Origin: Clostridia bacterium
GTDB taxonomy: Bacteria; Bacillota; Clostridia; RGIG6154
DNA length: 35,080 nt
Assembly (NCBI GenBank): GCA_017626145.1
Contig: JAGAJK010000021.1
Location: 1-35,080 of the forward strand
Direction: 5' to 3'
Positions 5,043-22,257 of this stretch are shown here, piece after piece. The notes under the pieces were generated by a model that saw only the letters and a list, made by a program, of their open reading frames with translations, was not told the origin of the DNA and searched no databases. Each line of letters opens with the position of its first letter. Position 1 is the first letter of the stretch. A program made the position numbers and the translations under genes.

Positions 5043-6949
5043 AATGATTTACGCTTCTTCCATAGTGAGAACTTAAGAAGGCTTAAAATTACAAGTGCGA
5101 AAACAACAAGTGAAACAACACTTTCAGCAAATGCAGGTAAATTCAACATTCCTGAAAGGTCAATACGCTCATCTACTCCTGCAATTGTAAGAATAGCAAG
5201 TATGATACCAACAAGACCTTCACCGGCAATCATACCTGAACAGAATAAGATACCGTCGTTTACAATTTCCTTCTTTTCATCCTCGTTCTTCTTAAGCTTA
5301 TCCATAACAAGACGTACAAGACCACCTACCATAATGCAGGCATTAAGATGAACAGGAAGATATACACCAATTGCAAAAGGTAATACCGGAATACCTAAGC
5401 ATTCAACAATTACTGCAATAGCTACACCAACAAATACAAGCCCCCATGGAAGGTTTGCGTTCATAACACCTTCTACTATCATTTTCATAAGTGTTGCCTG
5501 TGGTGCTGCGATTTCTTCTGAGCCAAAGCCCCATGCTGCATCAAGAAGATAAAGTGTTCCACCGATAGCAAAAGCTGCAGCTGCAACACCGATTATTTCT
5601 GCAATCTGCTGTTTCTTTGGCGTTGCACCTAACAAATAACCTGTTTTAAGATCCTGAGAAGTATCGCCTGAAATTGCGGCAACAATACAAATAATTGAAC
5701 CTATAGCAATAGCACTTGCCATGCCTGTTGCACCAACAGTACCTGTTGACTTAAGGATAATTGTAGCAACAAGAAGTGTTGCAATAGCCATACCTGAAAC
5801 AGGATTATTGCTGCTTCCTACAAGACCAACCATTCTTGAAGAAACAGTTGCAAAGAAGAAGCCGAATACTACAATGATTGCTGCACCTAAAAGTGTTACA
5901 GGAACAGCAGGAACAAGCCATATAACAAGAGTTAATATTAATATCATACCAAGTACAACACCCATATTAAGGTCACGTTCTGTACGGAGTGTACCTGATT
6001 TACCTGAGTTCATCATACTCTTTATTGCACCTGTAAAGGTTGTGACAATCAACGGAAGTGATTTAACTAAGCTTATAATACCGCCTGCCGCTAAAGCACC
6101 TGCACCTATATAACGAACGTAGCTGCCCCAGATTGCACTTGCACCACCATCGGCATACATTTGCGCAATAGAAGTAGTTCCGGGAGCCATAATTGCTTCG
6201 CCACCGAAAAGCACAATTAAAGGAATCAACACTACCCAGCTTAAAAGTCCGCCGCTGAACATATATGAGGAAATCTTAGGTCCGCATATATAGCCAACGC
6301 TCATTACAGCAGGATAAATCTGTGTTCCTATTTCACCTGCAAAGCCTTTTACTACCAATGAAACCTCGCTTTTTGCCACTTTAAGACCGTCGATGATAAA
6401 CTTAAATAAAGCAGCAAAGCCCATACCTGCGAAAACTGTTACGGCACTTGAACCGCCGTTTTCACCGGCAAGAAGAACCTCTGCACAGGCAGAGCCCTCA
6501 GGATAAGGGAGAATACCATGTTCCTTAACAATTAACGCATTACGAAGAGGAACCATAAAGAACACACCTAAAAGACCGCCTATTAAAGCAATCAATGTTA
6601 TTTCAACAATATCAGGCTTGTCCATAATGCCTTCCTTTGCCCAAAGGAAAAGTGCAGGAAGTGTAAAAATTGCACCTGCAGCAAGTGATTCACCTGCTGA
6701 ACCTGTTGTCTGTACAATGTTACTTTCGAGAATTGAATTTTTTCTCATAATAATACGGATTACACCCATAGAAATAACGGCAGCAGGAATTGAAGCCGAT
6801 ACGGTCATACCTACACGAAGTCCCAGATATGCGTTTGCCGCACCGAAAACAACCGCCAGAATAATACCCATAAGTATTGATGTTACTGTTATTTCGGGAG
6901 TAACTCTTTCAGCCGGAATATACGGCTTAAAATTGTTGCTGTTTGACAT
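5039..6949 (-). CDS. OPT-family oligopeptide (or metal-chelate) transporter
   Basis: 636-residue polytopic inner-membrane transporter of the OPT family, proton-coupled importers of small peptides or metal-siderophore complexes. Hydrophobic helices run through the whole length. Family segments include GAANAYLGLRVGMTVSASIP near the N-terminus, TTGSAGESLAAGAIFTLPAL, YPEGSACAEVL, GGEAIMAPGTTSIAQMYADG and ISGDTSQDLKTGYLLGATP. The start at 6949 (MSNSNNFKPYIPAE) is chosen because GGAG lies nine bases upstream; longer readings have no site. It is first in a two-gene operon with the PqqD-like gene. Substrate cannot be told from sequence; members of this prokaryotic branch are often annotated as peptide transporters. 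Confidence 0.92.
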   Translation of the reverse strand: MSNSNNFKPYIPAERVTPEITVTSILMGIILAVVFGAANAYLGLRVGMTVSASIPAAVISMGVIRIIMRKNSILESNIVQTTGSAGESLAAGAIFTLPALFLWAKEGIMDKPDIVEITLIALIGGLLGVFFMVPLRNALIVKEHGILPYPEGSACAEVLLAGENGGSSAVTVFAGMGFAALFKFIIDGLKVAKSEVSLVVKGFAGEIGTQIYPAVMSVGYICGPKISSYMFSGGLLSWVVLIPLIVLFGGEAIMAPGTTSIAQMYADGGASAIWGSYVRYIGAGALAAGGIISLVKSLPLIVTTFTGAIKSMMNSGKSGTLRTERDLNMGVVLGMILILTLVIWLVPAVPVTLLGAAIIVVFGFFFATVSSRMVGLVGSSNNPVSGMAIATLLVATIILKSTGTVGATGMASAIAIGSIICIVAAISGDTSQDLKTGYLLGATPKKQQIAEIIGVAAAAFAIGGTLYLLDAAWGFGSEEIAAPQATLMKMIVEGVMNANLPWGLVFVGVAIAVIVECLGIPVLPFAIGVYLPVHLNACIMVGGLVRLVMDKLKKNEDEKKEIVNDGILFCSGMIAGEGLVGIILAILTIAGVDERIDLSGMLNLPAFAESVVSLVVFALVILSLLKFSLWKKRKSL

Positions 6950-7032
6950 CTTTCTTAACTCCATTCTTTTTATTTGTGTGTAAAATAACTGCACAAAATA
7001 AAATTTTTGCACCTATAAACACAATCCTATGT

Positions 7033-7061
7033 GTTTTATCATTTTATGACGTTTTTGTCAA
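7033..7061 (-). promoter_or_regulatory. Probable promoter of the OPT-PqqD operon
   Basis: TTGACA (7056-7061, minus strand) and TAAAAC (7033-7038) with a 17-base spacer. The -35 box is perfect and the -10 matches four of six. It lies about 85 bases before the transporter start. Confidence 0.5.
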
Positions 7062-7082
7062 TGTCTATTAACAATATTACAA

Positions 7083-7113
7083 AATAAAAGTACAGCGTAG
7101 CTGTACTTTTATT
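7083..7113. terminator. Terminator at the end of the tubulin/actin-like operon
   Basis: AATAAAAGTACAGC (7083-7096) and GCTGTACTTTTATT (7100-7113) form a 14-bp stem with a 3-base loop, T-rich on both sides. It begins six bases past the serine hydrolase stop codon. Confidence 0.85.
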
Positions 7114-7118
7114 ATTAT

Positions 7119-8057
7119 TTAATTTGCTGATACATATTCGCCCGGATTCTCAAAATATGTAACTAATTCAAGCGCCATATCTGCAATACTTTCCTGAATA
7201 TCCTCTTTCATACGGTCACGGGTTTCGTTGTTTGGAATATCGTTTACAAATACGCAAAAGATAAACTGAAACTCTTCACCCTTTTCGTTTTTACCGGTAA
7301 TTATTGCGACATCGTTTTCAACACTTGAAAGTTCACCGGTTTTATTGTACACGGTTACATTTTTATTTTTAAGCTTGGCGGGTATTTTATTCACACGCTT
7401 CTGATTCTTAAGGTAATTCAGTAAATCGTCACTGCATTCTTTATCTACAAAGCTTCCGTTATATACCTTTTCAAGAAGCAAACCAACCTCCTTTGCAGAG
7501 GTTAAATTATCCTCACCGCTTGGTCCTCCCGGTGGAAGTGTGTTGTACATTTTTCTGCGGAGCTCAGTGTTTCTGTAGCCATTTTTGTAAATAACCTGAT
7601 TAATTCTTCCGAAAGTATACTTATCAATAAGATTATTGCTCGATTCGTTGTGACTTTCGGTAATCATTTTATTAAGCCATTCTTTTGTCTCTTCATCCAT
7701 AGCCATACCATCCTGCTCATAAGCAGTAAGAGCGATGAAAAGCTTTATTACGCTTGCTGAATTCATCTGACGGTCGTTAAAAACAACATCCGCTCCCGTT
7801 TTCAAATCCTTTATATAAAATGAAAGCTCAAGAACATTGCCGTAATCTGTTTTAAATTCCTCTGCAAGCTTACCGGCAACAAATTCAAGCTGTGACACTT
7901 CTTTTTTGCCGGGATTTACTTCCTGCTTAACGTTTTCAGGTTCATTTACGGTAACTGAAGCAGGCTTTGTAAAATAGCGGTCGATAATTCTTCCCACAAC
8001 AAAAACAAGGACTGCGACTAAAATTACCAGTAATAGTACACGTAGTATTTTTTTCAT
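7119..8057 (-). CDS. Membrane-anchored serine hydrolase, class A beta-lactamase-like fold
   Basis: 312 residues. One N-terminal membrane helix (about residues 5-22), a linker, then a beta-lactamase/DD-peptidase-type domain on the outside. All three catalytic motifs are present: S102-V-I-K105 (SxxK), S135-H-N137 (SxN) and K239-T-G241 (KTG). The omega loop does not show the usual class A ExxLN pattern, so a resistance enzyme is not a safe call; a cell-wall or protein hydrolase is equally likely. Last gene of the ten-gene operon: nine bases after the zinc-ribbon gene, with AAGGTG before the ATG, and followed by a terminator. It is the intact relative of its upstream neighbour, whose same domain has lost its motifs. 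The role in the operon is inference. Confidence 0.85.
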   Translation of the reverse strand: MKKILRVLLLVILVAVLVFVVGRIIDRYFTKPASVTVNEPENVKQEVNPGKKEVSQLEFVAGKLAEEFKTDYGNVLELSFYIKDLKTGADVVFNDRQMNSASVIKLFIALTAYEQDGMAMDEETKEWLNKMITESHNESSNNLIDKYTFGRINQVIYKNGYRNTELRRKMYNTLPPGGPSGEDNLTSAKEVGLLLEKVYNGSFVDKECSDDLLNYLKNQKRVNKIPAKLKNKNVTVYNKTGELSSVENDVAIITGKNEKGEEFQFIFCVFVNDIPNNETRDRMKEDIQESIADMALELVTYFENPGEYVSAN

Positions 8058-8066
8058 TACATCACC

Positions 8067-9209
8067 TTAAAACTGACTTTCAATAACGTATCCGGCAATT
8101 GCTTTAATTGCATCGTATCTGTACTCGTCTTTTTCGTTAATATCATCTGTAAGAGCCATAATTGCAATTACAATTTCTGTATTTCCGTCGCTTATATACG
8201 CAACCTCATTGGATGAATAGTTATTTGCAACATTATGATTTGCTACAGTATATCTGCTTCCGTAAATCTTCTGAAGTCCGTAATAGTCACTCTGGTCTCT
8301 GTATTTACAAATGCTTTTCATATAACCCGAATCGCCTAATTCATTGTCAAAAATCATCTTTTCAAATATATTGCAAATATCATATGCAGTTGTGGCGTTG
8401 GGCTTTGCTGAGTTATCTATCTTACTTGCATCTATTACAATTTTTCTGTTTACGTTGGTATTGGTAAAGCCCTCTTCCCTGAGCCAGTTATTAATATAAT
8501 CAAAGCCCTCGTAAGCATCGTAATAACCCATATAATCAACAAGATAGTTTGCACAGTTATTGTCACCGTATGTACATACTGCCTCAATGTATTCTCTTAT
8601 GCTTCTGTATTCACCGTCATAATACTTGCTGTTCGGCATTTCTCTGCCGTTGGGAATATAGTCAAAATAGATGGTTTCATTATCGATGTCGTAGTCGTTC
8701 TCGTCTATAAAATTGCCTAAAGAAGCTATTATAGACATATATGTAAGTGCAGATGACGGCATACTTACGTGCTCGTTATAGCCATATTCTGCACCGTTGG
8801 TAAGATTTTTAACATATACAGAATACTGAGTACTGCTCGTATACGGTGAAACAAGATTTGAAACTGTTTCTTCGTCAAATATATTTACATATTCAACTTC
8901 AGGTGTTTCACCGTCATCGTCATCACCTGAATTTCCGCCTCCGTCACCACCGCTGTAGCCACTATCGATATTACTGATTATATTTTTAGCAAGGGAAAAT
9001 GCACCGATATTTATTGTACTTAATATTAAATTTACTACAATAAATACAGCAACACACGCAAATGCAATACCGACCTTTGCACCTGTTGAATAGTCTTTTT
9101 CAGGGTTAACTGCTTTTGGAGCAGGTGGTGCTGCTTCAACAGGATTACCGCAATTATTGCAGAACTTCGCTGTATCAGAAACCATCGCTCCGCATTTATT
9201 ACATTTCAT
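8067..9209 (-). CDS. Zinc-ribbon, single-TM protein with degenerate beta-lactamase-like domain
   Basis: 380 residues. An N-terminal zinc ribbon (CNKCG ... CNNCG, Cys 3, 6, 17, 20) would be cytoplasmic, followed by a membrane helix (about 46-66), a Gly/Asp-rich linker (83-101) and an external domain (about 108-380). The external domain aligns with the next gene's hydrolase, but the motifs are changed: S153-A-L-T156 for SxxK (Lys lost), G215-D-N217 for SxN (Ser lost), and H325-N-V327 for KTG. It is therefore probably catalytically dead and may bind a ligand or the partner hydrolase. The start has AAGGAG eight bases upstream. It is the ninth gene of the operon, 31 bases after the TM2 gene. The zinc ribbon on the inside suggests inside-outside linkage. 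Confidence 0.8.
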   Translation of the reverse strand: MKCNKCGAMVSDTAKFCNNCGNPVEAAPPAPKAVNPEKDYSTGAKVGIAFACVAVFIVVNLILSTINIGAFSLAKNIISNIDSGYSGGDGGGNSGDDDDGETPEVEYVNIFDEETVSNLVSPYTSSTQYSVYVKNLTNGAEYGYNEHVSMPSSALTYMSIIASLGNFIDENDYDIDNETIYFDYIPNGREMPNSKYYDGEYRSIREYIEAVCTYGDNNCANYLVDYMGYYDAYEGFDYINNWLREEGFTNTNVNRKIVIDASKIDNSAKPNATTAYDICNIFEKMIFDNELGDSGYMKSICKYRDQSDYYGLQKIYGSRYTVANHNVANNYSSNEVAYISDGNTEIVIAIMALTDDINEKDEYRYDAIKAIAGYVIESQF

Positions 9210-9240
9210 TTAATCACTCCTTGATATTTAGCGTTATAAA

Positions 9241-10128
9241 TTAACTGCAGAACTTATCATTAAAGGTCTGATTACTTGAAAACAAATAAATTATAGCTTC
9301 TACCAGAGCAACATAAGCAGGTACGCCTGTCCAGCATAAGCAAAGATAAATAATACCCCATACAATTTTTCCGGTATAGAATTTATGAATTCCGAAACCG
9401 CCTAAAAATACTGCAAGTAATATTGCGATAAATTTATTTCTTACCGGCTTAACATAAGTATTATTTGAATAATTCTGTGTGTTGTAATTTGTATAGCCGG
9501 TGTTTGTATTATTAGTATTAACCGTATTGGTATTTACAGTGTTAGTTTGCTGAACGTTATTTATAGGGCGTGGCTTTACCGTATTTGCAGGTTGCTGCAC
9601 CGGTCTGTTTGTATTATTTGTGTTAACCGCCTGTCTTTGAGCAGTATTTGTATTATTTCCTGCATGTCCGGAGGAAGCAGGTTTTTGCACATTTACCGGT
9701 CTGTTCTGAGGCTTATTGGTGTTGCCTTGTGGTGCTGATGTTTTAGCAGCAGGAGCATTCGTCTGCTTCTGAGTAGCAGGCTTAACTGTTTCAGGCTTAA
9801 CCTCCTCTACCTTCGGCTTCGGTGGTTCAACCTTTCTTGTAGTTATGGATATGCTTCCGCCCATTGCCAGAATTTCAGGTGGGTTGTATTCTACAACCGC
9901 CACATCGTTTCCGCCCAAAGCAAACTTTGCCGATGCAAAGCCACAGTTGGCTCCAAGATATTTAAAGAACATTTTTATGCTATGCTCACCCGGTTCCAGA
10001 GCAACAGAAACAGCCTCATTATTATTAAGCTTTAAATCCTTCACCGAATCGATTGTAACCTCAACCTCTGAACCCTTTAAAAAACCCAGAAGTGTCTGAT
10101 TAACCGTAATTGTGACATTGTTATTCAT
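9241..10128 (-). CDS. TM2-domain membrane protein with N/T/P/Q-rich linker
   Basis: 295 residues in three parts. Residues 1-100 form a compact beta-rich domain (MNNNVTITVNQTLLGFLKGS ... ISITTRK) that I do not recognise. Residues about 103-230 are low complexity, full of Asn, Thr, Pro and Gln. Residues about 232-290 are a TM2 domain: a hydrophobic helix, then GGFGIHKFYTGK, then a second helix pair. TM2 proteins are small membrane proteins with two helices and a conserved turn; their bacterial function is poorly known. The start at 10128 has AAAGGCGG upstream. It is the eighth gene of the operon. The linker may span a peptidoglycan or cytoplasmic distance; orientation is uncertain. Confidence 0.8.
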   Translation of the reverse strand: MNNNVTITVNQTLLGFLKGSEVEVTIDSVKDLKLNNNEAVSVALEPGEHSIKMFFKYLGANCGFASAKFALGGNDVAVVEYNPPEILAMGGSISITTRKVEPPKPKVEEVKPETVKPATQKQTNAPAAKTSAPQGNTNKPQNRPVNVQKPASSGHAGNNTNTAQRQAVNTNNTNRPVQQPANTVKPRPINNVQQTNTVNTNTVNTNNTNTGYTNYNTQNYSNNTYVKPVRNKFIAILLAVFLGGFGIHKFYTGKIVWGIIYLCLCWTGVPAYVALVEAIIYLFSSNQTFNDKFCS

Positions 10129-10164
10129 TTATTATGCCGCCTTTCGCAGAGAAAATATCTCCCG

Positions 10165-11526
10165 TTATTTTTTTGCCAATGCATCAATAGACTGTTTAAG
10201 CTGACCGATTTTAATCTTTATTGCATCGAGTTCGCCGTCAGTCGCTGCCATAGGCGAATTTGTAACAAGCTTACCGAGCTTACTGAACACGTTTGAATCT
10301 ATATACTTATGTCTTTTAAGTACAAAGTTTACAAGCTGTGTGTTGGCATCGGTCATATCATATATTTTCTTATTGAACAATACACTTGATGCTATACTCT
10401 CACGCAATGTTGCATTATAGCTTTCCATTGCAGAAACCATACTCTTTCCCTGTTCGATAAGTCTTTCATTTGATGCCAGAGTCTGATTTGTTCTTTCAAG
10501 ATTGTTTTCCATAAGGAATGAAATTCTGTTGAAAACATCACTTATATGGTTATCAACAATCATTTTAACTTCATTTAACTGCTTTGCAGTTATGGCACGA
10601 AGAAGAGCTTTGATTTCGCTTAGCTGTGCATCTGCACTTATGTTTCCGGTTTTAACTGTATCAAGAAGCTTCACAAGCTCAGAATCAAGCTTTTCCATAC
10701 TGCTGTAAAAGCTGTTGTAATCCTTGAAAAATTCAATATACTGCTGAATATCTTCGTCGTGGAGATGCTTATCTTTAATCATATCCTTATACTGAATTTC
10801 AATTTTTTCAACCTTTGACTCAAGAACGTGAATTTCGTCTCCGAAGGTACTGTTCTGGGGAGCAGTTTTTAAATCACAGTAATCTTTAGTTAAATCAAAA
10901 ATACTTTTAATGCTGCCCTGAACCGACTGCATAGTTTTGGAAAGAGTACCGCTTATTTCCGCGTATTCATGATTTTTATTTATCTTGCTGTCGAGCTTTG
11001 AATTAACAGATACCAAAAGCTCTTCCTTTTGCTGTTCATAGCTTTTTTGCATAAGAGCATATTTGTTAATTACGCTTCTTAAAACATCTTCCGCCATACC
11101 TGTTTCCGATGAAAGGGAAGCCTTATCGAAAAGAACGCAAATCAGATACCATACAGCAGAAACACTGCACAGAATAATGCATAAATTTTCTGTAATCATT
11201 CCCAAAAACACAAAAACTGCGTATACAACAAGTAAAATACAAAGCGAATATGTGCAGAAATGTCTGAAGCCCCATACATATTTTGTCATATCACTTATAA
11301 CAGAGCCGGGATTAACATTTATACCTTTGCTCTTCGAATCAAGGATATAAGTAATCTGACGTGACAGAAATTTACTGCCACAATTATAGCCTTCATCCTT
11401 GCTTGTCTTTAAAGCATTGACATCGACCTTTTTACACTCAGTAAAATAAGTTGTACGGGAGAAGAATAAAGCAACGTCAACAGCAACAATTAATGCCAGT
11501 AATATCCAGCTTAATATAGTCATCAT
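10165..11526 (-). CDS. Three-TM protein with long coiled-coil tail (second of a similar pair)
   Basis: 453 residues. TM1 at about 3-23, about 70 soluble residues, TM2 and TM3 at about 92-138, then roughly 310 residues of predicted helix and coiled coil with heptad-like Leu/Ile spacing (for example ESKVEKIEIQYKDMIKDK). The plan matches the upstream neighbour and is reminiscent of the MotA/TolQ/ExbB topology (one helix, cytoplasmic stretch, two helices, cytoplasmic tail), but I see no diagnostic channel motif. The start at 11526 is an ATG sharing its A with the neighbour's TGA (TGATG), with GGGAG seven bases upstream. Likely partner of the neighbour in a hetero-complex; function unknown. Confidence 0.75.
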   Translation of the reverse strand: MMTILSWILLALIVAVDVALFFSRTTYFTECKKVDVNALKTSKDEGYNCGSKFLSRQITYILDSKSKGINVNPGSVISDMTKYVWGFRHFCTYSLCILLVVYAVFVFLGMITENLCIILCSVSAVWYLICVLFDKASLSSETGMAEDVLRSVINKYALMQKSYEQQKEELLVSVNSKLDSKINKNHEYAEISGTLSKTMQSVQGSIKSIFDLTKDYCDLKTAPQNSTFGDEIHVLESKVEKIEIQYKDMIKDKHLHDEDIQQYIEFFKDYNSFYSSMEKLDSELVKLLDTVKTGNISADAQLSEIKALLRAITAKQLNEVKMIVDNHISDVFNRISFLMENNLERTNQTLASNERLIEQGKSMVSAMESYNATLRESIASSVLFNKKIYDMTDANTQLVNFVLKRHKYIDSNVFSKLGKLVTNSPMAATDGELDAIKIKIGQLKQSIDALAKK

Positions 11527-12932
11527 CACTCATCTCCCTTTGTTTTTTTAGTCAATGCTGCATCAACCTTCTTTGTAAGGTCATCCAAATCCGCTGTAAC
11601 AGACTGGAAATAGTCAGAAAGATTGTATTTGCTTTCGTTGAGGAACTGCTTCATTGACGAATTTGCTTCATGTGCATCGTTATTCTCAAGAACGTCCACA
11701 AGCTTATAATTTGCCGCACAGAGTGCCATAACAGCCTTTTCGATATTTTCATTTGTTTTTACCATATTATCGAGTGCGCCGACAGCTGTGTTGTGCATAT
11801 TTTCTGCAAGAGATATAATTTCCTTAAAGCCGTTGTCTGCAATCTGACACATTTTGTTTGATGTTTCAACGTGCTCGCTGAATATAGCCTTCATCTTTTC
11901 ATAGATTTCAGCAGACATCATATTAAGATTCGAGAAGGTAAACTTGGAATCACTTACAAATTCGCCAAGCTGTGCTTCCATTACGCTTTTAATTGATTCA
12001 GCAAGCTTTATGTAGGTATCTGAAAACTTATCAACTGATTCAATTGTCTTTTTGCTCATCAGGGCAACAGATGCTTCCACCTTACCCAAGTCGTTTATAT
12101 TTGAAAGACAGTTTCTGTAAAGCTGCATATTTTCATTGTAATTACTCTTTGCATCAGCAACTACAGCATTGAATTTATCAACAGACTTATTTAAATTTCC
12201 AAGTGCGTCAAATGGAGATTTCTTGCTTTCTTCTACAGAAAAATCGTAAATTTTCTGTAAAGCGGCAATAATATCGTCAAGATTCTGATTGGTTTTTAAT
12301 GCGAATTTCTGACTTTTGTCGCTGTTTTCACTACAGCTTTTTAAGTATGCTATTTCAGAATCAAGCTTTGAAGCAACACTTTTCATAGTTTCCATAGTTC
12401 TGTTAAAACGCTTTAATTCAGCGTCACACAAAACGGGAATATAAAGCTCGCCTATTGTTCCCAATGCATCTGCAAGAACATTATCAGACTTTACCTTGTG
12501 CATCAAAACCAATGCAAGTGCGATAACTGCTGCCAAAAATAAATCCGAACGTCCCTGGAACAGCATCACAACTGAGAAAATAAGGAACGCTATGGACAAA
12601 CAAAAAACAGGCATAACGTATCTGTTATACTTTGTCTTGAAATTTTCGCCTGCAAGCTGGCCCTCTCTGCCGTCGCCACTGCTTTTGAATATAGCAGAAA
12701 TAACCTCAATAATGAGGTTATTTCTGCTGATTCCGTTGTCAGTGCAATAGTTGAGTAATTCTGTTTCTTTTCCCAAAACGGCGGAGAGTTTTTTTACTGA
12801 ATTGTAATCGCTTAGCTTTGTAAGTGCTTTTTTTACAGATGACACCATTATCACCCACCCGAGTAAAACACCTGCAAAAAGAACTAAGTAAAAAATATTT
12901 ATAATTGTAAAAACACTACCCATTATATTCAA
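11526..12932 (-). CDS. Three-TM protein with long coiled-coil tail (first of a similar pair)
   Basis: 468 residues. TM1 about 8-30, a soluble segment, TM2/TM3 about 107-147, then about 320 residues of mostly helical, coiled-coil sequence (SEIYEKMKAIFSEHVETSNK and similar), resembling the signalling helices of chemoreceptors or the tails of ZorA-like MotA homologues. No HAMP or methyl-acceptor hairpin motif is evident. The likely start is TTG at 12932, since AAAGGTG stands at the right distance; the first ATG (12923) is too far from it. Stop overlaps the next gene's start. Together with the next gene it could form a membrane scaffold or channel driven by or anchoring the cytoskeletal proteins upstream; this is inference. 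Confidence 0.75.
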   Translation of the reverse strand: MNIMGSVFTIINIFYLVLFAGVLLGWVIMVSSVKKALTKLSDYNSVKKLSAVLGKETELLNYCTDNGISRNNLIIEVISAIFKSSGDGREGQLAGENFKTKYNRYVMPVFCLSIAFLIFSVVMLFQGRSDLFLAAVIALALVLMHKVKSDNVLADALGTIGELYIPVLCDAELKRFNRTMETMKSVASKLDSEIAYLKSCSENSDKSQKFALKTNQNLDDIIAALQKIYDFSVEESKKSPFDALGNLNKSVDKFNAVVADAKSNYNENMQLYRNCLSNINDLGKVEASVALMSKKTIESVDKFSDTYIKLAESIKSVMEAQLGEFVSDSKFTFSNLNMMSAEIYEKMKAIFSEHVETSNKMCQIADNGFKEIISLAENMHNTAVGALDNMVKTNENIEKAVMALCAANYKLVDVLENNDAHEANSSMKQFLNESKYNLSDYFQSVTADLDDLTKKVDAALTKKTKGDE

Positions 12933-12955
12933 CTTTCACCTTTCATTTACAGATA

Positions 12956-13852
12956 TCAAAGAACTGTTACTGCACCCTTACTGATTAAATCGGTGCGGCC
13001 TGAAGCTCTGTTTTCCTTTAATACAAGAGGTGCATTCAACACAACCATCTTACCGTTATCAGAATTTCTTGTAATATCAAACCAGGGGCTGTACATCATA
13101 TCGTAAGCTCTTTCTCTGATTTTAGCATCAGGATATACTTCTATGGTTTCGTTAGCACCTGCTCTGCAATAGAACATTGTATTTGAACCCATAATTTCGT
13201 TTAATTCGATTATTCCGCCAACAGTCTTAACATCAACAGCAGTAAGTCCGAGTGTTGACATTGTTCCGTCAGAAAGAGCACGGTTAAGCTTTTCTTCAAA
13301 GCTGAGTTCAACAGCAGGCTGATAAACAGGCTCAGGCTCGGGAACGTATGACTGTGAATTAACATTAGCATAGCTTACTTCTCTGCTTACAGTATCAAGC
13401 TGTCCTTTAATTATGTTAACGTCCTTTTCAATGAAAGAAACCTTGCTGTATACGGCGTCACGGTTCTGTGCCGCATCCTTAAGCTGTTTTTCAATTTTTT
13501 CAAATCTTTTGCTGTTACCTGATTTTGCAAGAATAACTATAAGCAATACTAAAACTGCAATACCCCATACTAAAACTACTATTGTTTTAATATCAAAAGC
13601 ATTTTCTTTGTCAGCTTCTTCTGCTTCTTCTTCAACTGCAGGTTCCTGTGCAGGTTCAACAGGTGGTGCCGGCTGCTGTACAGGTGCCGGCTCTTCTGTC
13701 TGAGCTTCAGGAGCTGCAGCATCAGGGTTTTCAGTTTGAACTGCAGCCTGGTCGCCGCCTTCAGTGCCGGTATCAGGCTCTGCGTATACGCCAACTGCTA
13801 CGCTGAAGCATAATGTTAATACCAATAATAATGACAATACAACCTTTTTCAT
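12956..13852 (-). CDS. Signal-peptide, single-TM protein with Pro/Glu-rich outer segment and coiled coil
   Basis: 298 residues. A cleavable signal peptide (1-24, cut after VYA), an extracellular acidic, proline-rich stretch (about 25-87, many Glu, Pro, Ala and Gln), a membrane helix (about 89-110), a coiled coil (about 113-165), and a cytoplasmic C-terminal domain (about 190-298) with no family I recognise. The topology (outside to inside) makes it a candidate link between the cell wall side and the cytoplasmic ATPase encoded just before it. The ATG lies three bases after the ATPase stop, with GGGAGG upstream. Fifth gene of the operon. Function unknown. Confidence 0.75.
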   Translation of the reverse strand: MKKVVLSLLLVLTLCFSVAVGVYAEPDTGTEGGDQAAVQTENPDAAAPEAQTEEPAPVQQPAPPVEPAQEPAVEEEAEEADKENAFDIKTIVVLVWGIAVLVLLIVILAKSGNSKRFEKIEKQLKDAAQNRDAVYSKVSFIEKDVNIIKGQLDTVSREVSYANVNSQSYVPEPEPVYQPAVELSFEEKLNRALSDGTMSTLGLTAVDVKTVGGIIELNEIMGSNTMFYCRAGANETIEVYPDAKIRERAYDMMYSPWFDITRNSDNGKMVVLNAPLVLKENRASGRTDLISKGAVTVL

Positions 13853-13855
13853 TTT

Positions 13856-16800
13856 TTAATTCCTCCCGTTTTCTTTAGATAAGATAGCCTTAACACCAAG
13901 TGCAAACGCAGGTGACATAATGCCTTCTCTTATTTCATTTGCAAGGTCAAGCTTGATTCTTTCGTAAATTGTTACCCAGTCATCAGCAGTATAATCGAGC
14001 TTCATTGCCTGGTCATCATATACAAGATGTACCTTGTTGCACAACTCGATAAATGCTTTGATGCTTTCCATATCACCATCAATTTTGATTTCAGCAATAT
14101 CACCGGGAGATGTAAGTGAGGAAGGTGTTCCTTTAACCTCGTAGTATTTTTTCATTGCTTCATCATCGTAAATATTGTCGGTTGCAACAAATTCCTTTGT
14201 TGTTCCGTTCTGATATCGGATTATTGCCTTTTCACCCATAAGAGTTACTGTGTTACGCAGATAATCAAATTCGTTACCGGATATGTTAAGAAGTCCTCTT
14301 GCAGCTTCAGTCTTAAGATTTGAACTGTTATACTGAATATCAATTACGATATCTCTTCCTATAACCTGTGCAAGATATTCTCTCATACATTTTTTAAGCT
14401 CGTTCTTATAATAATCCGGGAACCAGTTATAAAGCTTTGAACCATTACCGCCAAGACAAACAGTAAGACTGTGTGAATCAGCTATTTCATCCTTAACATA
14501 AGCAATTGCATTCATTGCATAGTAAAGAAGTGAGATAAAACCAACCGAAATGCTCTTCTGGAAGGTTGCCTTCTGAGCACTTTCAAAGTTATCAACAATA
14601 CCCTGAACACGGTTTTCAAATTCAAAGAGAATACCTTCAATTGCCATACGCAATTTATCTGTTATAACGCCCTGATTATCCTGTAATTCCTTTTCAATTT
14701 CACTCTTTAAAGCAACTACACTGCTACGGATATTGGAATCCTCAGTTATAAGCTTTGTGATGCTTGGAAGGAATATTGCACGTGATGCAAGATTAATTGA
14801 TGTCTGGAGAAGGTTCTTTGTATCAACGCCACGCTTCCAGATTGAAATATCTGTTGAACCGCCACCGATATCTACGCAAACGAACAAGCCTGCATCTGCC
14901 TGAGTGCCGAAGTACTCTGCTGCTGCGATACTTTCTGTGTAGAAGGTATGACCTTCTTCAACATTACACTTAATACCCGATTCCTGTTCGAGCATCTTAA
15001 TTATATTCTTTGTCATATTCTTGTAGCCGTCAAGAAGTGATCTTGAAAGTGCTGTAGGATATGACAGCTTCCAGGTAATTTCGCCTACATTTTTAATTGC
15101 TGCAGCATACACAATCTGTGAAAGAACCTGATATACATAGTTTCTTGCGGCAGCCTTAACATCAGAATCCGAACTCCACTTAAGGTCGGTATAAACCTTT
15201 GTAAGCTCGTTGCCGGTGTTTTCGTATGAGTAAAGTGAGTGACCCTTAACAAAAGCTTCTGCTGCAGAAGAATCAAAGTTGCTGCTCTGCTGTTCGTAAA
15301 TTGTAGGATATGCATTTCTCTGAAGATACATATCAGGAACGAACTGTGCTTTATCCTGTCTGAAAATAATAGGATTAAGAGCAACGTACAAGCCTTCATC
15401 AACTGTGTCACAGATTACCTTCTCATCCTTCTGTGTAGCTGTATTTCTTTCTACCTTATATTCGGTACCAAACTGTACAAACGATGTTCTTCCGTGTGCT
15501 TCGGTATAGAATGCAGTTGTTGATGTTGTACCAAAGTCAAAGCCTACAGTCCACTTTGTGTGAGTCTGAATATCACACTTCTTAGGACTTGTAAGAAGAA
15601 TTGCACCTAAGGATTTTGCAGGATTAGCCTTGTCAAAAATCTTTACATGAGTAGGAATGTCAGGATAAATGTACTGACTTCTTGTAAAGTACTCATCTGA
15701 AATGCAGTTAAGGTTATATGCATTTACATTAAATGGCTTGTCCGCACAGATTGAATAAGGAACGGTATCCTTTGTAGAAGCACAGTATGTATAATACTTT
15801 TTCCAGAGATTTTCAGGATTACCTTCCTTGCATACCTTAACATATGGCCATATTGAAAGGTATGGAACCATTGTTTCGGGAATAACAGTCATATCATCCT
15901 GATTATATCTCTTTGAAACTTCAATTTCACCTGCTAAAAGCTTTAATGAAAGCTTAACGATATATTCTGTGGTCGAAACCTTTTCAACTTTGATTCTGTC
16001 ACGGATTTCGGAAGCAGTCATATACTTGAAAAGAACATCGTTAACAGGCCATATAATATCTCTGTTATTAAGTGTTGCATAGTTGCTTGCATCTGCATTT
16101 TCATTTGTTATTGTTTCACTGCTTTCAATTAAAGCGAGCTTATCAAGGAGAAGATCTGATGCAATGAAAATCTCTGTATCCTCGGGAATAGGATGACCTG
16201 CATACATTCTGTCACCACTGCAGAAGCCACCCTTCTGTCTGAGGCTTCTTGCACCTATAACGGTGATGCTGTCTGCTATATCTGTATTTGCGGAGATACC
16301 TAAAATTGTATCATCAATAAGTATAAGCTTTTTATCGCCCTTTGTTTCAAGCTGAAGCTTACAAGGCTCCTCAACAGGAGTGTAGCTGAGCTTTATGTTT
16401 GACATAAGCTCATAAATTCCGGGCATTTCAAGCATAGGAACAGAAACACCGATGCACTTATCCTCAATTGCAGGAAGTCCGATTTCGCTTCTGAACTGTT
16501 CGAGAAGTGAAATTAAGTTACCCAGTACGATTGACTGCGGAAGATTTGTCATTAAGTATTCAATAAGCTTGCTGAGCCATGTAAACATAGCATATTTTCT
16601 GCGTTCATCACTTGCAATGTAAGGAACAGGATTAATAAAGCTTCCGTTAACAAAGAAAGGCTTTGTTGCAAGAAGAACCTGTGTTTCAGGAGCAAAATGG
16701 TATGGAGGGCAAACAAGAGTTGAGTTTGAAAGCATACCGATATTGAATTCTCTGAGTCTTTCGTTAATATTAATCGGAGTTACCTTGTACCAGCAGGTAC

Positions 16801-17230
16801 CGTCTCTGAAAATATAGTTTCCGGGAGTGAGCAGTTTAAGATTCTTAAACAGCTTTTCTTCCGATGCGTTCATATGATTGTTTAAATCAATAGTTTCATC
16901 AAGCACTACATTCATACCGATGATTTCACCTAAAGCGATTAATGTGAGAAGACATCTCCAGTCGTTAAGTGCCTGATCGTAAAGTGTGCCGTATTCTTCC
17001 CTTCCACCAAAAAGAACAGATTCGAAGGACACGAATTTTGCCCAGGGTGAAGGAATTGAAATATCGTCCATTGTTAATTTCGTACCTTCAGCAACAGGAG
17101 GTAAGTCCTGAGAAATAGCTGAAAGTGCGTTTAAAGCATTTGCTTTAACCCATGAATTTTCCAGACCCGGTGCAACACCTAATTTGTCGTTATATCCGGG
17201 GGTTTTATTTTTAGTTCTGTATAAAGCCAT
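13856..17230 (-). CDS. Large protein with actin/Hsp70-type ATPase domain and unknown N-terminal half
   Basis: 1124 residues, no membrane segments. The actin/Hsp70/sugar-kinase ATPase fold spans about 555-1010: phosphate-1 motif VGFDFGTTSTTAFY (about 558-571), phosphate-2 motif FVCVDIGGGSTDISIWKRG (about 780-798) and an adenosine-type motif LTVCLGGNGSKLYNWF (about 918-933). Residues 1-550 (including PGYNDKLGVAPGLENSWVK at the start) and the last 100 are not recognised. This is far larger than MreB, FtsA, ParM or DnaK. The ATG has AGGAGG eight bases upstream and follows the tubulin-like gene by 14 bases. It could polymerise, act as a chaperone for the tubulin-like protein, or act as a sensor; sequence alone cannot decide. 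Fourth gene of the operon. Confidence 0.85.
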   Translation of the reverse strand: MALYRTKNKTPGYNDKLGVAPGLENSWVKANALNALSAISQDLPPVAEGTKLTMDDISIPSPWAKFVSFESVLFGGREEYGTLYDQALNDWRCLLTLIALGEIIGMNVVLDETIDLNNHMNASEEKLFKNLKLLTPGNYIFRDGTCWYKVTPININERLREFNIGMLSNSTLVCPPYHFAPETQVLLATKPFFVNGSFINPVPYIASDERRKYAMFTWLSKLIEYLMTNLPQSIVLGNLISLLEQFRSEIGLPAIEDKCIGVSVPMLEMPGIYELMSNIKLSYTPVEEPCKLQLETKGDKKLILIDDTILGISANTDIADSITVIGARSLRQKGGFCSGDRMYAGHPIPEDTEIFIASDLLLDKLALIESSETITNENADASNYATLNNRDIIWPVNDVLFKYMTASEIRDRIKVEKVSTTEYIVKLSLKLLAGEIEVSKRYNQDDMTVIPETMVPYLSIWPYVKVCKEGNPENLWKKYYTYCASTKDTVPYSICADKPFNVNAYNLNCISDEYFTRSQYIYPDIPTHVKIFDKANPAKSLGAILLTSPKKCDIQTHTKWTVGFDFGTTSTTAFYTEAHGRTSFVQFGTEYKVERNTATQKDEKVICDTVDEGLYVALNPIIFRQDKAQFVPDMYLQRNAYPTIYEQQSSNFDSSAAEAFVKGHSLYSYENTGNELTKVYTDLKWSSDSDVKAAARNYVYQVLSQIVYAAAIKNVGEITWKLSYPTALSRSLLDGYKNMTKNIIKMLEQESGIKCNVEEGHTFYTESIAAAEYFGTQADAGLFVCVDIGGGSTDISIWKRGVDTKNLLQTSINLASRAIFLPSITKLITEDSNIRSSVVALKSEIEKELQDNQGVITDKLRMAIEGILFEFENRVQGIVDNFESAQKATFQKSISVGFISLLYYAMNAIAYVKDEIADSHSLTVCLGGNGSKLYNWFPDYYKNELKKCMREYLAQVIGRDIVIDIQYNSSNLKTEAARGLLNISGNEFDYLRNTVTLMGEKAIIRYQNGTTKEFVATDNIYDDEAMKKYYEVKGTPSSLTSPGDIAEIKIDGDMESIKAFIELCNKVHLVYDDQAMKLDYTADDWVTIYERIKLDLANEIREGIMSPAFALGVKAILSKENGRN

Positions 17231-17244
17231 TTCTAATCCTCCTA

Positions 17245-18680
17245 TCAGCTGTTTTTACAAAGATTGAGTAATGTACGGTAAAATCTTGCAAATGGTGATG
17301 CACCCTCAACAGGAGCTTCATTATTGAAGTCTGTGATGATTTCGTCACCTTTTTTACCTACTCTGTCACCAAATACTATTTCAGAAAGCAAGTCAAGCTC
17401 TTTTGTCTTTTCACCGAAGAGAGTCTTTGTAACGGGAGCACCGTTATAAAGAATATCGTAATCAAGTGAGAATCTGAAAAGTCTTATTGCGTTATTTACG
17501 TTAGGTGTAAGATAACCGTTTGCATCTGTCTGACGGTGTACTGCTCTCATCCAGTTAATAAAGAGCATTGAATATTCGTAAAGAAAATCCATTTCTTCAG
17601 GAGTAATACCCTTATATTTGTCAAGCCATGCACCGTTTGCTCTACCTTCCTTTAAGTGATGGTAATAATACTTTGTATACATAACAGCAAATTTAAGAAG
17701 ACCTGCAAGGTTTTCATATGAATTGCTCTGACCTGCTTTGTTTAACATATCCTGTGTTACAAGCATAAGTCCGTTTTCTTCATCACGGGTCATAAGCTTG
17801 ATTTCAAATGCTGCAGGAGCACTCTTTAAAAAGTCAATCAAAGCGGTTGCCGCACAAAGCTCAATTGCATTAGGGCAGTTAACCTGAGAATTACCGCCTA
17901 CGCTGTAGCCTACATTCATAAACTGGTCAACATCTTCACCGATTATGTAAAGGCTTCTGAAAATTTTATCAAAGTTCTGCTTGTCATAGAAAGACATTGC
18001 AGCCTTTGTTTTAGTAGTAAACGCAGTATAATCAATTACACCGTCGTTCTTTTCGGTTGTAAACTTGAAGTAAGGCATAACAAGAATTGCCGAAATATCA
18101 ACATTAGGACGGAATTCCTTTAAAATTCTTGATATAGTAGGTACACCTGAAGCACCTGTACCACCAAAGGCTGAACCTACAACAAAATCTTGTCACCGTC
18201 TGTAATATCCTGCAAAAATGCGTGCCATTCAGGAGTAAGCGTTCCCGGTGCTGTCATAAGCTGATCCGCCATGAACAATGAACCTATTGATGTATGACCG
18301 TAAAAGCCTTCGGTAAGGGTTTTGGTCTGTTCAAAGTCTGTATAAAGGAAATCAAGAACCTTTTTACCTGTCTTGTCACCCATAAATGATTTTCCGAGGA
18401 TAGTTTTCATATCGCTCATATCTGCCAGAGGTGACCAGCAAAGTTCTTCTATGTTTTCGTTCTTTGTAAGAATTTTTGTTTCAAATATATTATTTGCATC
18501 AAGCTTACGGTATTTTTCAACCAAGCCCTTAAGAAGTGCAAAGTCTTCGTTTCCGCCGTCGGAATCAACGCACATCATCTTAAGTGAATTTACAGGTAAG
18601 CTTCCTGATGCTGCAAGGTGAACTATAGCTTTACCGACTCTATGTCCGGTTCCACCAATAAGTACTACATAACATGCCAT
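17245..18680 (-). CDS. Tubulin/FtsZ-like GTPase, interrupted by a single frameshift
   Basis: Two frames together encode about 478 residues. The first (from ATG 18680, with GGAGG eight bases upstream) opens with a Rossmann-type nucleotide loop, CYVVLIGGTGHRVGKAIVHL, and runs to DGDKILL before TAG at about 18177. Shifting by one base near 18178-18187 restores the text IFVVGSAFGGTGASGVPTIS, which carries the tubulin/FtsZ signature GGTG[AST]G, and continues through MPYFKFTTEKND to the stop at 17245. Similarity is to bacterial tubulin-like families (Tubulin_2 type) rather than true FtsZ. The motif and whole length return with one base added, so a recent mutation or a sequence error is likely; no classic slippery heptamer is present. 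Third gene of the operon, with its predicted partner ATPase 14 bases downstream. Confidence 0.8.
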
Positions 18681-18712
18681 TTTATTAACCTCCAAAACTT
18701 AATTAATATACG

Positions 18713-18764
18713 AAAAAAGGATGATAGACTCTAATAAAACGTATTAAAATCAACATCCTTTTTT
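18713..18764 (-). terminator. Internal terminator-like hairpin between the membrane protein and the tubulin-like gene
   Basis: AAAAAAGGATG (18754-18764 in minus sense) pairs with CATCCTTTTTT (18713-18723) across about 30 bases, ending in a T-run. It lies in the only long gap (about 90 bases) of the operon and may reduce read-through so that the first two genes are made in excess. Confidence 0.5.
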
Positions 18765-18769
18765 ATGAC

Positions 18770-19231
18770 TTATCTTCTGATGAATCTTGCTACAGGATTA
18801 AAATGCTTGTAATCACTACATGTGAAAATTGATGAAATGAAGTATGTTACGAAGTTTAATAACGTAAACATAAGTGTTGTTGTTACAAATGTATCTGTAT
18901 CTGTAAGATAATCAACTCTGAACAGATAAACAAACACACAGGATACAAGCATATTAAGTACAAGGAAAATGAACCATACTGCTGTTGAGTTCATATTCAA
19001 GAATACCATAGCAATAACAAATAAAACATTTAATATAATGCATACGAGAACTGCTTTTAAGAAAACATCGCTGAATGCTACAGCAAAATCTTCTGCCGCA
19101 AGAGTTTCATCAAGCGGAATTGCATTTACAGACAAATTCGGTTCCACAACAAATGAATTGATGAGGAAGAAAATAATCGGAATTGCAATGCTTAAAATAA
19201 TCTGTACAACTGAACCTGCTAATTTTTTCAT
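18770..19231 (-). CDS. Four-TM membrane protein of unknown function
   Basis: 153 residues, strongly hydrophobic. Helices at about 8-28, 57-78, 82-104 and 115-136; the loop after helix 1 (about 29-56) is acidic and probably outside. The C-terminus is basic (ARFIRR). No family recognised. The ATG follows GGAGAG by about ten bases and lies 16 bases after the lipoprotein stop, so it is the second gene of the operon. A membrane platform for the lipoprotein or the cytoskeletal proteins is possible. Confidence 0.7.
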   Translation of the reverse strand: MKKLAGSVVQIILSIAIPIIFFLINSFVVEPNLSVNAIPLDETLAAEDFAVAFSDVFLKAVLVCIILNVLFVIAMVFLNMNSTAVWFIFLVLNMLVSCVFVYLFRVDYLTDTDTFVTTTLMFTLLNFVTYFISSIFTCSDYKHFNPVARFIRR

Positions 19232-19247
19232 AATTTAAACTCTCCTT

Positions 19248-20627
19248 TTATTTAAGCTGTAAATACAATGTAAATGTATTACTTACTTTATTTGACTTTT
19301 CCTGATAATTATATATTGTTGCAAACATATTCACCAGATTTTCCGTTTTACCGTTATCCCATGATTTAATCCATGCAGGAAGAGTTTCGGTAGATGTGAA
19401 ATGCTCTATTGTAACATCAAGCTTAACTACATCGCTGCTTGCAGGAAGCTTTGCAGCATTGGGAAGGGTTACGTTGAATATAAGTGAATTTGTCTTGTTA
19501 TCAACACGCCACTTACCCTGTTCCTTTGTTACACCTTCAGCTACATCGGTTTCAATTACCTCGCTGTAGTCACCCTCATACTTTTTAAACTTACCCTTGT
19601 TGCTTCTGTCGGGAACGTACAATTCAGAGGTTACCTTGCAATCCATTGTGCTGAGCTGAACACCGTCAATTATTTCAAAAGGAATGTACATTTTAACCTT
19701 ACCGCCATATTTCTTCTTGGCATCCTTTTTGGATAACAGAGAAACTGCACCAAGGTCAACTGTATTCTCTCCGACTATCTGAACAATTTTCTCCTTGGGG
19801 TTAAAGTTAACTGTACCTTCAATGTTATCAAGACCTTCTCTGTCAGTCTTTTCAATTCTTCTGAAGTTACCCTCAGCCTTTACCCAGTCGATATTTTTAT
19901 AATCAATGTTCATAATACCGCTCTTTTCAGCAAGTATCTGATAATTGATTGGTCTTTCTATGTCAAGAGCAAATTCTTCATCGCCATCTGTTCCGGAAAT
20001 TTTAACAACATCAGGTCTTTCCTTAAATGCCGTTACATAATCGGAAACGTGATAGCTGTTACCGAAAACAAGTATGTAATATGGTGCCGGAGTTGCGTCC
20101 ACACCGATAATACCTACGGCTCTGCTTTCTCCAAGTCCCTTCTTTATAATAAAGTTTGAAACAGTATTATAATCGTTAAGGTAAGAATTAAGCTCGGTTA
20201 TTACGATTGCAAGAGTTCCTTCTTTCACATCTTCAATAAGATTGAACAAATCTGCCTGAGGCACGGTATATAAAGCCGTATCCTTAAAGCCGTCCGTGAA
20301 GAAAGCTCCGTCTGCATCCGAAACAACATCTCCTACTGTTTTAACAGTTTTCTTTGTGCCGTTCCAGGCATCGTCAACTGCACTGTATGCAGAATAAATT
20401 ACCTTTGCGTAATTTTCATCATTAAGATATGCCGCCATACCTGATGAAATATTGTAATACACATTAACACTCGGTGCATCAAGTTTCTCAGGTTCTACAA
20501 TAATGTTTTTATTTGCATCATCAACCATAGTAGTTCCGCAAGATGTAAGCATTCCGATGACTAAAACAAAAACAAGCAGAACTGAAAAAACTCTACCTGC
20601 GTTAAAGCTTTTTTGTTTTGCTGTCAT
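19248..20627 (-). CDS. Lipoprotein, possibly with a degenerate vWA-like domain
   Basis: 459 residues. Lipoprotein signal: basic start, hydrophobic core, lipobox LTSC with Cys30. After a short linker comes VNVYYNISSGMAAYL (about 54-68), which resembles the first strand and MIDAS loop (DxSxS) of von Willebrand A domains with Asp replaced by Asn59. TLAIVITELNSYL further on could be the fourth strand. The C-terminal half is beta-rich with no recognised family. The start at 20627 is chosen because GAGAGG lies eight bases upstream and the lipobox then sits at the usual distance; earlier ATGs have no site. It is the first gene of the operon, directly after a consensus promoter. The lipoprotein call is firm, the vWA likeness tentative. 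Confidence 0.75.
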   Translation of the reverse strand: MTAKQKSFNAGRVFSVLLVFVLVIGMLTSCGTTMVDDANKNIIVEPEKLDAPSVNVYYNISSGMAAYLNDENYAKVIYSAYSAVDDAWNGTKKTVKTVGDVVSDADGAFFTDGFKDTALYTVPQADLFNLIEDVKEGTLAIVITELNSYLNDYNTVSNFIIKKGLGESRAVGIIGVDATPAPYYILVFGNSYHVSDYVTAFKERPDVVKISGTDGDEEFALDIERPINYQILAEKSGIMNIDYKNIDWVKAEGNFRRIEKTDREGLDNIEGTVNFNPKEKIVQIVGENTVDLGAVSLLSKKDAKKKYGGKVKMYIPFEIIDGVQLSTMDCKVTSELYVPDRSNKGKFKKYEGDYSEVIETDVAEGVTKEQGKWRVDNKTNSLIFNVTLPNAAKLPASSDVVKLDVTIEHFTSTETLPAWIKSWDNGKTENLVNMFATIYNYQEKSNKVSNTFTLYLQLK

Positions 20628-20696
20628 TCCTTTATCCTCTCCAGACATATTATTTTTTTCATAATTTTTTCGCAAATTATTCACGTATTATTTCAT

Positions 20697-20725
20697 ATTA
20701 TAACAAAATTATATACGCTTGTCAA
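20697..20725 (-). promoter_or_regulatory. Perfect-consensus SigA promoter of the tubulin/actin-like operon
   Basis: TTGACA (20720-20725, minus strand), exactly 17 bases, TATAAT (20697-20702). Both boxes match consensus fully. No other convincing promoter is seen before the terminator at 7083. The stretch 20628-20908 otherwise holds only AT-rich DNA and the glp operon terminator. Confidence 0.85.
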
Positions 20726-20865
20726 TAATATTACATTAAATTTGTTTCTTCGGGAACCACCCTTTTTTTAGTAGTGTTTAAATTAACCGCAAACACCAAA
20801 ACAATGGAAAATCATTTGTCATTATTTGTATTTTTTTACATTTTTTTGTATTTTTATTCACAAAA

Positions 20866-20888
20866 AAATACAGTGTAATTTCTTACAC
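20866..20888 (-). terminator. Terminator of the glp operon
   Basis: GTGTAA, tetraloop GAAA, TTACAC (minus sense, 20888-20873), followed by TGTATTTTTTT. It lies about 20 bases after the HAD phosphatase stop. Confidence 0.65.
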
Positions 20889-20908
20889 CGCATTTTTGTT
20901 TTAAATAA

Positions 20909-21700: not shown

Positions 21701-21702
21701 AA

Positions 21703-22257
21703 TTACCCCCAGAATTCTTCTTTACCTATTGAAACTGCCGTTGCACCGCTTTGGATAGCTTCGAGAATTTCTCTCTCGCAATCTATAATACCGCCTGCAA
21801 CAATAGGCATATTAAGCTCCGATTTTAATTTTTTAATTACCTTCGGAACAACTCCCGGCATAACCTCTATCATATCTGCTTTGGAGTTTTTGGATGTTTC
21901 AATAATTGTGTCAACAGAATGGGAATCAACTATAAAGAAACGTTGAACGGCGAAAAGCTTATGATTTTTTGCGAGCTTGATTATATTACTTCTTGTGCTG
22001 ATAATTCCGTCTACACCGCATTCTTTTGCGTAAAGAATTCCAAACTCGTCCTTACCTATTCCTTCAGCTAAATCAAGATGTATAAAAATCTTCTTGTTTG
22101 CATCGTGAACTGTTTTTGCCTGTTCCTTTATAAGGGAAATATTGGGGCAAAGCATAAATATTATGGGCACAGAAGATTTAGCTGCTTTAATAAGCTCATC
22201 ATTTGTTCTTACCGCTGCTATTACGTTTCCTTTACTCAATGTTTTCACCACCGACAT
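21703..22257 (-). CDS. glpP: GlpP, glycerol-3-phosphate-responsive mRNA antiterminator
   Basis: 184 residues of the GlpP family, a TIM-barrel protein that in Bacillus binds glycerol-3-phosphate and then the leader RNA of glp genes to prevent early termination. Recognisable stretches are VPIIFMLCPNISLIKEQAK, KKIFIHLDLAEGIGKDE, GIISTRSNIIKLAK, ADMIEVMPGVVPKVI, IVAGGIIDCEREI and AVSIGKEEFW. It overlaps the preceding DUF1667 gene by 26 bases. The start at 22257 has no clear ribosome site; a TTG at 22239 after GGTGG is an alternative. The operon leader carries a matching intrinsic terminator (25467-25513), so GlpP very likely regulates its own operon. Confidence 0.9.
   Translation of the reverse strand: MSVVKTLSKGNVIAAVRTNDELIKAAKSSVPIIFMLCPNISLIKEQAKTVHDANKKIFIHLDLAEGIGKDEFGILYAKECGVDGIISTRSNIIKLAKNHKLFAVQRFFIVDSHSVDTIIETSKNSKADMIEVMPGVVPKVIKKLKSELNMPIVAGGIIDCEREILEAIQSGATAVSIGKEEFWG

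Follow-up and report, generated by a model that had tools for sequence, protein, structure and literature searches.

A tubulin-like GTPase and a large actin-fold ATPase share a conserved four-gene core in Clostridia and Cyanobacteria

In eukaryotes, actin and tubulin work coupled in the cytoskeleton, and the clear bacterial case of such a pair is FtsZ with FtsA. Does the operon described here encode another one? In a 35,080-nucleotide stretch of DNA from a Clostridia bacterium (positions 1 to 35,080 of contig JAGAJK010000021.1, assembly GCA_017626145.1; referred to below as the window), a ten-gene operon begins with genes for a lipoprotein, a protein with four transmembrane (TM) segments, a tubulin-like GTPase and a large actin-fold ATPase. 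A preliminary description, made from the letters alone, saw in the ten products a single envelope-spanning cytoskeletal machine. The comparison with other genomes showed that the order vWA lipoprotein, 4-TM protein, tubulin-like protein, actin-like protein is conserved in Clostridia and Cyanobacteria. Recognisable conservation is limited to these first four genes, with a fifth conserved by position only; all six genes after the core are accessory. The idea of one machine thus holds for the four-gene core and not for all ten genes, since the rest vary among loci.

Profiles were built from plasmid loci of Picosynechococcus and Gloeothece, found by tblastn of plasmids, and from four loci on genome contigs, and whole genomes were then searched; sequences of the window were left out of the profiles used to test its proteins. 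On plasmids of both genera the large actin-like protein is encoded beside a tubulin-like gene, in Picosynechococcus together with TM2 and serine hydrolase genes. The annotation of the Gloeothece plasmid names the tubulin and calls the actin-like product hypothetical. The actin-like family was present in 22 of 244 cyanobacteria, in 2 of 391 genomes of the class of the window and 2 of 398 of its phylum (the window genome counted in both), and in none of the 5 genomes of the same family that were searched. The core is rare and patchy in its distribution. No core match was found in phages or viral contigs, and a phage or virus origin was set aside.

Gene order was counted over 26 loci, near-duplicates removed. 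In 23 of them the tubulin-like gene shares its strand with the actin-like gene and lies upstream of it, within about 620 bases in 22. The count becomes 24 with a circular Gloeothece plasmid; the first view cut this plasmid at its start, and its other half shows the order too. At the core a 4-TM gene was recognised by profile in 21 of the 26 loci and a vWA-family gene, in line or divergent, in 19. Two clostridial loci (L007 and L041) encode a 4-TM protein without detectable similarity at the equivalent place, and the former also a lipoprotein at the place of the vWA gene. Because the tree of the actin-like proteins separates Bacillota and Cyanobacteria (support 95/96, all four Bacillota branches being long), the order of the core appears to have outlived a deep split. 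Homologues scattered over other genomes would have spoken against the unity of the operon; the order of the core was instead kept across two phyla. In one locus (L059, 4410-8379, plus strand) an insertion of three unrelated genes separates the tubulin gene from the actin gene.

The actin/Hsp70-fold ATPase of the window (13856-17230, minus strand; 1124 amino acids) is recognised by the profile with E=5.9e-102. Phosphate-1 (WTVGFDFGTTST, about residues 560-571), phosphate-2 (VCVDIGGGSTDISIW) and adenosine (CLGGNGS, about 925-931) motifs are aligned across the family, as is typical of the ASKHA superfamily. They are preceded by some 550 N-terminal residues of unknown fold; no known relative of this half of the protein was found. 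Pfam FtsA matches 17 of 24 family members and MreB 14 of 24. When the family profile was compared with the PDB, actin and MreB were matched at 3.6e-4 to 8e-4, and FtsA was matched as well. All 50 best structure matches of the predicted model of the window protein have the actin/Hsp70 fold (Hsp70, actin, ParM, MreB, Ppx or PilM). Profile, Pfam, PDB and structure matches agree with the 1124-residue actin-fold ATPase proposed at the outset. An identity as SrfB-type actin or SrfA was dropped after one weak SrfA match (0.011) and no link in the literature. A second, shorter actin-like protein is encoded in L048 (16443-18641, plus strand) and L058 (4949-7879, minus strand).

The first gene of the operon (19248-20627, minus strand) encodes a lipoprotein of 459 amino acids with a signal peptide and the lipobox LTSC, matched by its family profile with E=1.3e-5. 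In an alignment of 16 relatives the lipobox is followed by VDGSGSM.GYV (VDGSGSMLGYV) and later by TDL, as in vWA domains that have a metal ion-dependent adhesion site (MIDAS). The family is read as a divergent vWA family from this motif and from its gene context. The preliminary description had the lipoprotein right and missed in it the vWA partner known from FtsZl1 systems. In the window protein the site is degenerate (YYNISSGM), and usual metal binding is not expected of its NISSG. The second gene (18770-19231, minus strand; E=2.5e-5) encodes the 4-TM protein, of 153 amino acids with four hydrophobic segments.

The tubulin-like gene is split in the window by a frameshift just before the GTP-binding T4 loop. 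An N-terminal part with the T1 loop IGGTG (18177-18680, minus strand; E=4.7e-24, model positions 2-167) ends prematurely. A coding remnant of the T4 loop, GSAFGGTGASG, was seen by three-frame translation at 18145-18177 in a second frame, outside both listed open reading frames. The C-terminal part of 277 amino acids (17245-18078, minus strand; E=2.9e-22, model positions 220-365) follows in a shifted frame, the two open reading frames being 98 bases apart. The T4 loop (GSxFGGTGASG) is nearly invariant among the intact relatives. Tubulin_2 (PF13809) matches all 14 intact relatives (best 5.2e-9) and PF00091 10 of 14; the halves in the window have no Pfam match of their own and are recognised only through the profile of the clade. 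Most top structure matches of a predicted model of the tubulin from L006 are tubulins. The tubulin fold of the family is supported by these profile and structure searches, as the preliminary description expected, while its single open frame overlooked the frameshift. With the order of the core and both folds supported, its central proposal, that a GTPase of tubulin type is linked with an actin-fold ATPase and with membrane proteins, held up.

What the frameshift means for the window copy is a separate matter. Since no slippery heptamer was recognised by eye, programmed frameshifting was set aside and the frameshift is taken as a real mutation or an assembly error. The cytoskeletal module of this genome is probably impaired unless the latter is the case. 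The window copy might then be a dying, non-functional relic, either idle or working only through its actin-like and accessory proteins. The lesion before the T4 loop speaks for such decay, as do the uninterrupted genes of all 22 other full-length relatives checked and the altered MIDAS of the lipoprotein. However, the MIDAS is also altered in L007, which has an intact tubulin, so that decay does not necessarily follow from it. Moreover, apart from this break, the two halves of the tubulin gene and the remaining genes have open frames and are well conserved, and the lesion is therefore either recent or an assembly error. On balance a relic is considered rather unlikely.

Systems in which a divergent GTPase of the FtsZ/tubulin superfamily is encoded with vWA and membrane proteins were described before as vWA/FtsZl1 (Tubulin_2, PF13809) systems, with a predicted role in membrane remodelling (Makarova and Koonin 2010, PMC2875224). 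The core resembles them in the T4 loop as tubulin signature, in the vWA-family gene beside it, in OmpA-type proteins at some loci, in its patchy distribution and in the presence of a canonical FtsZ. In contrast, the actin-associated tubulins mostly have ~490-530 amino acids (the one of L007 is longer), without the long coiled coil and alpha-helical C-terminal domain of FtsZl1. They form a clade separate from classical Tubulin_2 with support 100/100, and an actin-fold ATPase of ~1,100 residues is their constant partner. None of the Ser/Thr kinase, P-loop GTPase or OmpA partners of vWA/FtsZl1 systems is encoded in the window operon. Five classical Tubulin_2 (FtsZl1) loci of the class of the window (L066-L070) encode proteins of 843-1192 amino acids, one cut by the contig end, with vWA-type and large membrane protein neighbours. 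At two or more of these loci the vWA-type neighbours have an intact DDSGSM, and an actin-like gene was found at none of the five (three seen in ~20 kb of context, two on ~6 kb contigs). The actin partner is absent from the main text of the earlier study, the supplement of which lists uncharacterised families that may include some of the genes (Makarova and Koonin 2010, PMC2875224). A literature search found no description of a tubulin-actin pair of this kind. Among the vWA/FtsZl1 systems the core apparently makes up a distinct branch, not described before, in which actin is a partner.

The combination of a filament former of the tubulin superfamily with an ATPase of the actin superfamily, and with wall enzymes across the membrane, recalls FtsZ and FtsA. 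FtsA has ~400 amino acids, in contrast to the 1,124 of the window protein, and the vWA lipoprotein and 4-TM protein are additions. As the genome of the window encodes its own FtsZ elsewhere, the core would be an extra system. The magnetosome proteins MamK (actin) and McaA (vWA) likewise join an actin-like filament to a membrane protein with a vWA domain; the gene set is another one, and the likeness, by description only, is a lead.

Taken together, the data are best read as a conserved cytoskeletal module of the membrane, its four core parts built around a pair like FtsZ and FtsA; we give this reading a probability of about 0.45. The vWA lipoprotein would be located outside, the 4-TM protein in the membrane, and the tubulin-like GTPase and large actin-fold ATPase inside. 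Lining the cytoplasmic membrane from within, the tubulin-like protein may form filaments that depend on GTP, with the actin-like protein as an ATP-dependent partner or adaptor in the manner of FtsA with FtsZ. Such filaments could be linked through the 4-TM protein to the vWA lipoprotein, which might bind something at the wall or cell surface as a sensor or anchor. Accessory TM/coiled-coil proteins may bundle or anchor the filaments. Wall-active or wall-binding proteins would act outside, and as the output, membrane and wall might be locally remodelled or reinforced. Candidates for such wall-linked neighbours are beta-lactamase-fold proteins in the window and in Picosynechococcus (L002), a glycosyl hydrolase family 3 protein in L042, and OmpA/ZorB-like proteins in L041 and L055. 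Homology, folds, gene order and co-conservation are matters of observation; we infer filaments, contacts and output. Because neither a member of the MotA_ExbB family nor an Omp85 protein was found in the window genome, the machine, if working, would sit at a single membrane, and the span assigned to it earlier is narrowed to the cytoplasmic membrane and wall.

Several points weigh against the membrane cytoskeleton module. The tubulin copy in the window is frameshifted. The L006 tubulin model is weak (mean predicted local distance difference test score, pLDDT, of 57), and its tubulin matches have E-values of ~2e-3 with enoyl reductases (Rossmann reductases) among them. The model of the window actin is weaker, with a mean pLDDT of 38. 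An amphipathic C-terminal anchor helix is a feature of FtsA, whereas the hydrophobic moment of the conserved C-terminal helix of the actin-like proteins has its median at the 79th percentile (48th in the window), so that this helix is not clearly amphipathic. The vWA assignment was made without a significant Pfam or PDB profile match; Pfam VWA_2 matches 1 of 16 members of the lipoprotein family, with E=0.07. Finally, three loci have the actin gene without a tubulin gene in view, one of which is explained by the circular plasmid.

A bolder version can be formulated tentatively, as a possibility held with some reserve. It sees here a two-polymer membrane machine of tubulin and actin, not described before and separate from that of cell division. 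A vWA lipoprotein would lie on the outer side, a proton-driven motor of the ZorAB type would be attached in some lineages, and the whole would have been passed on as one unit from a time before the clostridial and cyanobacterial versions diverged. If true, a second conserved tubulin-actin pair in bacteria would be a case of two cytoskeletal polymers cooperating at the membrane. The pair would be linked with a lipoprotein at the surface and, in some cases, with a rotary-type motor, and part of the FtsZl1 family would have a definite partner. The presence of the core on plasmids of the cyanobacterial genus Picosynechococcus makes experiments possible.

The motor genes just mentioned also suggest another function, an envelope-located anti-phage or damage-response system resembling Zorya. 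In such a system the vWA and 4-TM proteins would sense a disturbance of the envelope, and nucleotide-driven filaments, in some variants a proton-driven ZorAB-like motor, would trigger a local response. L041, which belongs to the class of the window, has ZorA-like (2.9e-11) and ZorB-like (4.9e-19) genes at 13014-15474 (plus strand), shortly after the core. L055 has the same pair (2.4e-7 and 6.9e-9) at 15915-18599 (plus strand). A defence role would also fit the patchy, partly plasmid-borne occurrence of the system and the complete type I restriction-modification system (HsdM, HsdS, HsdR; 25708-31447, plus strand) located 5 kb upstream of the operon in the window. However, no ZorAB-like or MotA/ExbB protein was found in the window or its genome, no effector like ZorC, ZorD or ZorE was recognised in L041 or L055, and the core has no convincing match to any PADLOC family. 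To our knowledge, a tubulin/actin core is not part of Zorya. A defence system of this type is regarded as unlikely. OmpA-like/ZorB-like proteins occur only in L041 and L055; beyond its ZorAB-like genes the former encodes a 1,133-amino acid protein of unknown family, and in L054 a divergent ZorA-like gene (4.8e-5) was seen on the vWA side.

Transport or secretion across the membrane, powered by the core with the filaments as a scaffold, was raised as an alternative by a reviewer of the study on the vWA/FtsZl1 systems (Makarova and Koonin 2010, PMC2875224). A surface lipoprotein, a multi-TM protein and NTPases are indeed encoded together. Yet the conserved core includes no recognisable channel, transporter or secreted substrate, which makes this role improbable. 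A role in segregating plasmids or other DNA, such as TubZRC and ParMRC have, is brought to mind by the use of tubulin- and actin-like proteins for this end on plasmids and by the several loci on cyanobacterial plasmids. It is hardly credible, since many loci are on large, multi-megabase chromosomal contigs (one a 2.2-Mb single-contig genome) and the core has no small DNA-binding adaptor and usually a lipoprotein and membrane proteins nearby.

The genes downstream of the core vary among loci; in cyanobacteria and in L042 they encode TM/coiled-coil, zinc-ribbon or TM2 proteins. These proteins share an unnamed domain of ~110 residues, present in one or two copies per protein and in several proteins per locus (L002, L044, L048, L058 and other cyanobacterial loci; L042, 7881-8918). 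Its carriers downstream of the actin gene are TM/coiled-coil, TM2 and zinc-ribbon proteins, and the shorter actin-like protein of L058 has an N-terminal copy. In the window the actin gene is directly followed by a gene (12956-13852, minus strand) for a protein of 298 amino acids with a signal peptide, one TM segment and a coiled coil (two hydrophobic segments). It has the same position as proteins with this domain elsewhere, but the shared C-terminal domain, present in L042 (1.1e-13) and L041 (hhalign 92%), was not detected in the window copy.

Then follow two 3-TM coiled-coil proteins known by topology only, A (11526-12932, minus strand; 468 amino acids) and B (10165-11529, minus strand; 454 amino acids), without detectable homology to each other. 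The preliminary description compared them with TolQ. Homology to TolQ/MotA was rejected, judging by the lack of a Pfam MotA/ExbB match and of a GLLGT (GLLGTxxG) motif in TM2/TM3 of both proteins, by hhalign probabilities below 1% against the MotA/TolQ/ZorA family and by the whole-genome negatives given above; topology is all they have in common. One weak ZorA match to a 3-TM protein (E=0.005) aligned only in the coiled coil.

Among the operon products Pfam names only the last three. These are a TM2-domain protein (9241-10128, minus strand; 295 amino acids; PF05154, E=8.4e-16) and two beta-lactamase-fold proteins, in keeping with their first assignment. The first of the latter (8067-9209, minus strand; 380 amino acids) has a zinc ribbon (PF13240, E=8.9e-8), a TM segment and a beta-lactamase fold (PF13354, E=4.9e-15) without SxxK, and is probably not catalytic, judging from its residues. 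The second (7119-8057, minus strand; 312 amino acids; PF13354, E=5.6e-34) is a membrane-anchored serine hydrolase with the motifs SVIK, SHN and KTG (SxxK, SxN and KTG). Picosynechococcus (L002) likewise has genes for a TM2 and a beta-lactamase-fold protein near the core. The glycosyl hydrolase family 3 protein of L042 (4210-5955, minus strand) has a membrane segment at its N-terminus, and at the end of that operon a zinc-ribbon DUF805 protein is encoded.

The ten-gene stretch is a real operon, with one strand, tight gaps, a promoter and a terminator. It runs on the minus strand from the ATG at 20627 to the last stop at 7119, with intergenic gaps of 3-36 bases, one 4-base overlap (between A and B) and one 89-base gap before the tubulin gene. 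A purine-rich ribosome-binding stretch precedes most genes. The promoter (TTGACA-17-TATAAT, with TG before the -10 box; 20697-20725, minus strand) is located 70-98 bases upstream of the likely ATG and is the sole 12/12 site in the 16.5 kb scanned (5500-22000), where by our own estimate ~0.03 such sites are expected. Sites with 9/12 matches occur at chance level (53 found, 51 expected). An alternative GTG start at 20684 lies only ~10 bases after the -10 box and is therefore unlikely, the ATG being the better start, as was proposed. Directly after the last stop a terminator hairpin of 14 pairs has T-rich tails on both sides (7083-7113, minus strand). These features reproduce the single-strand, tight operon with a perfect promoter and a terminator first described. 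Between the operon and the type I restriction-modification system lies a glycerol-3-phosphate gene cluster.

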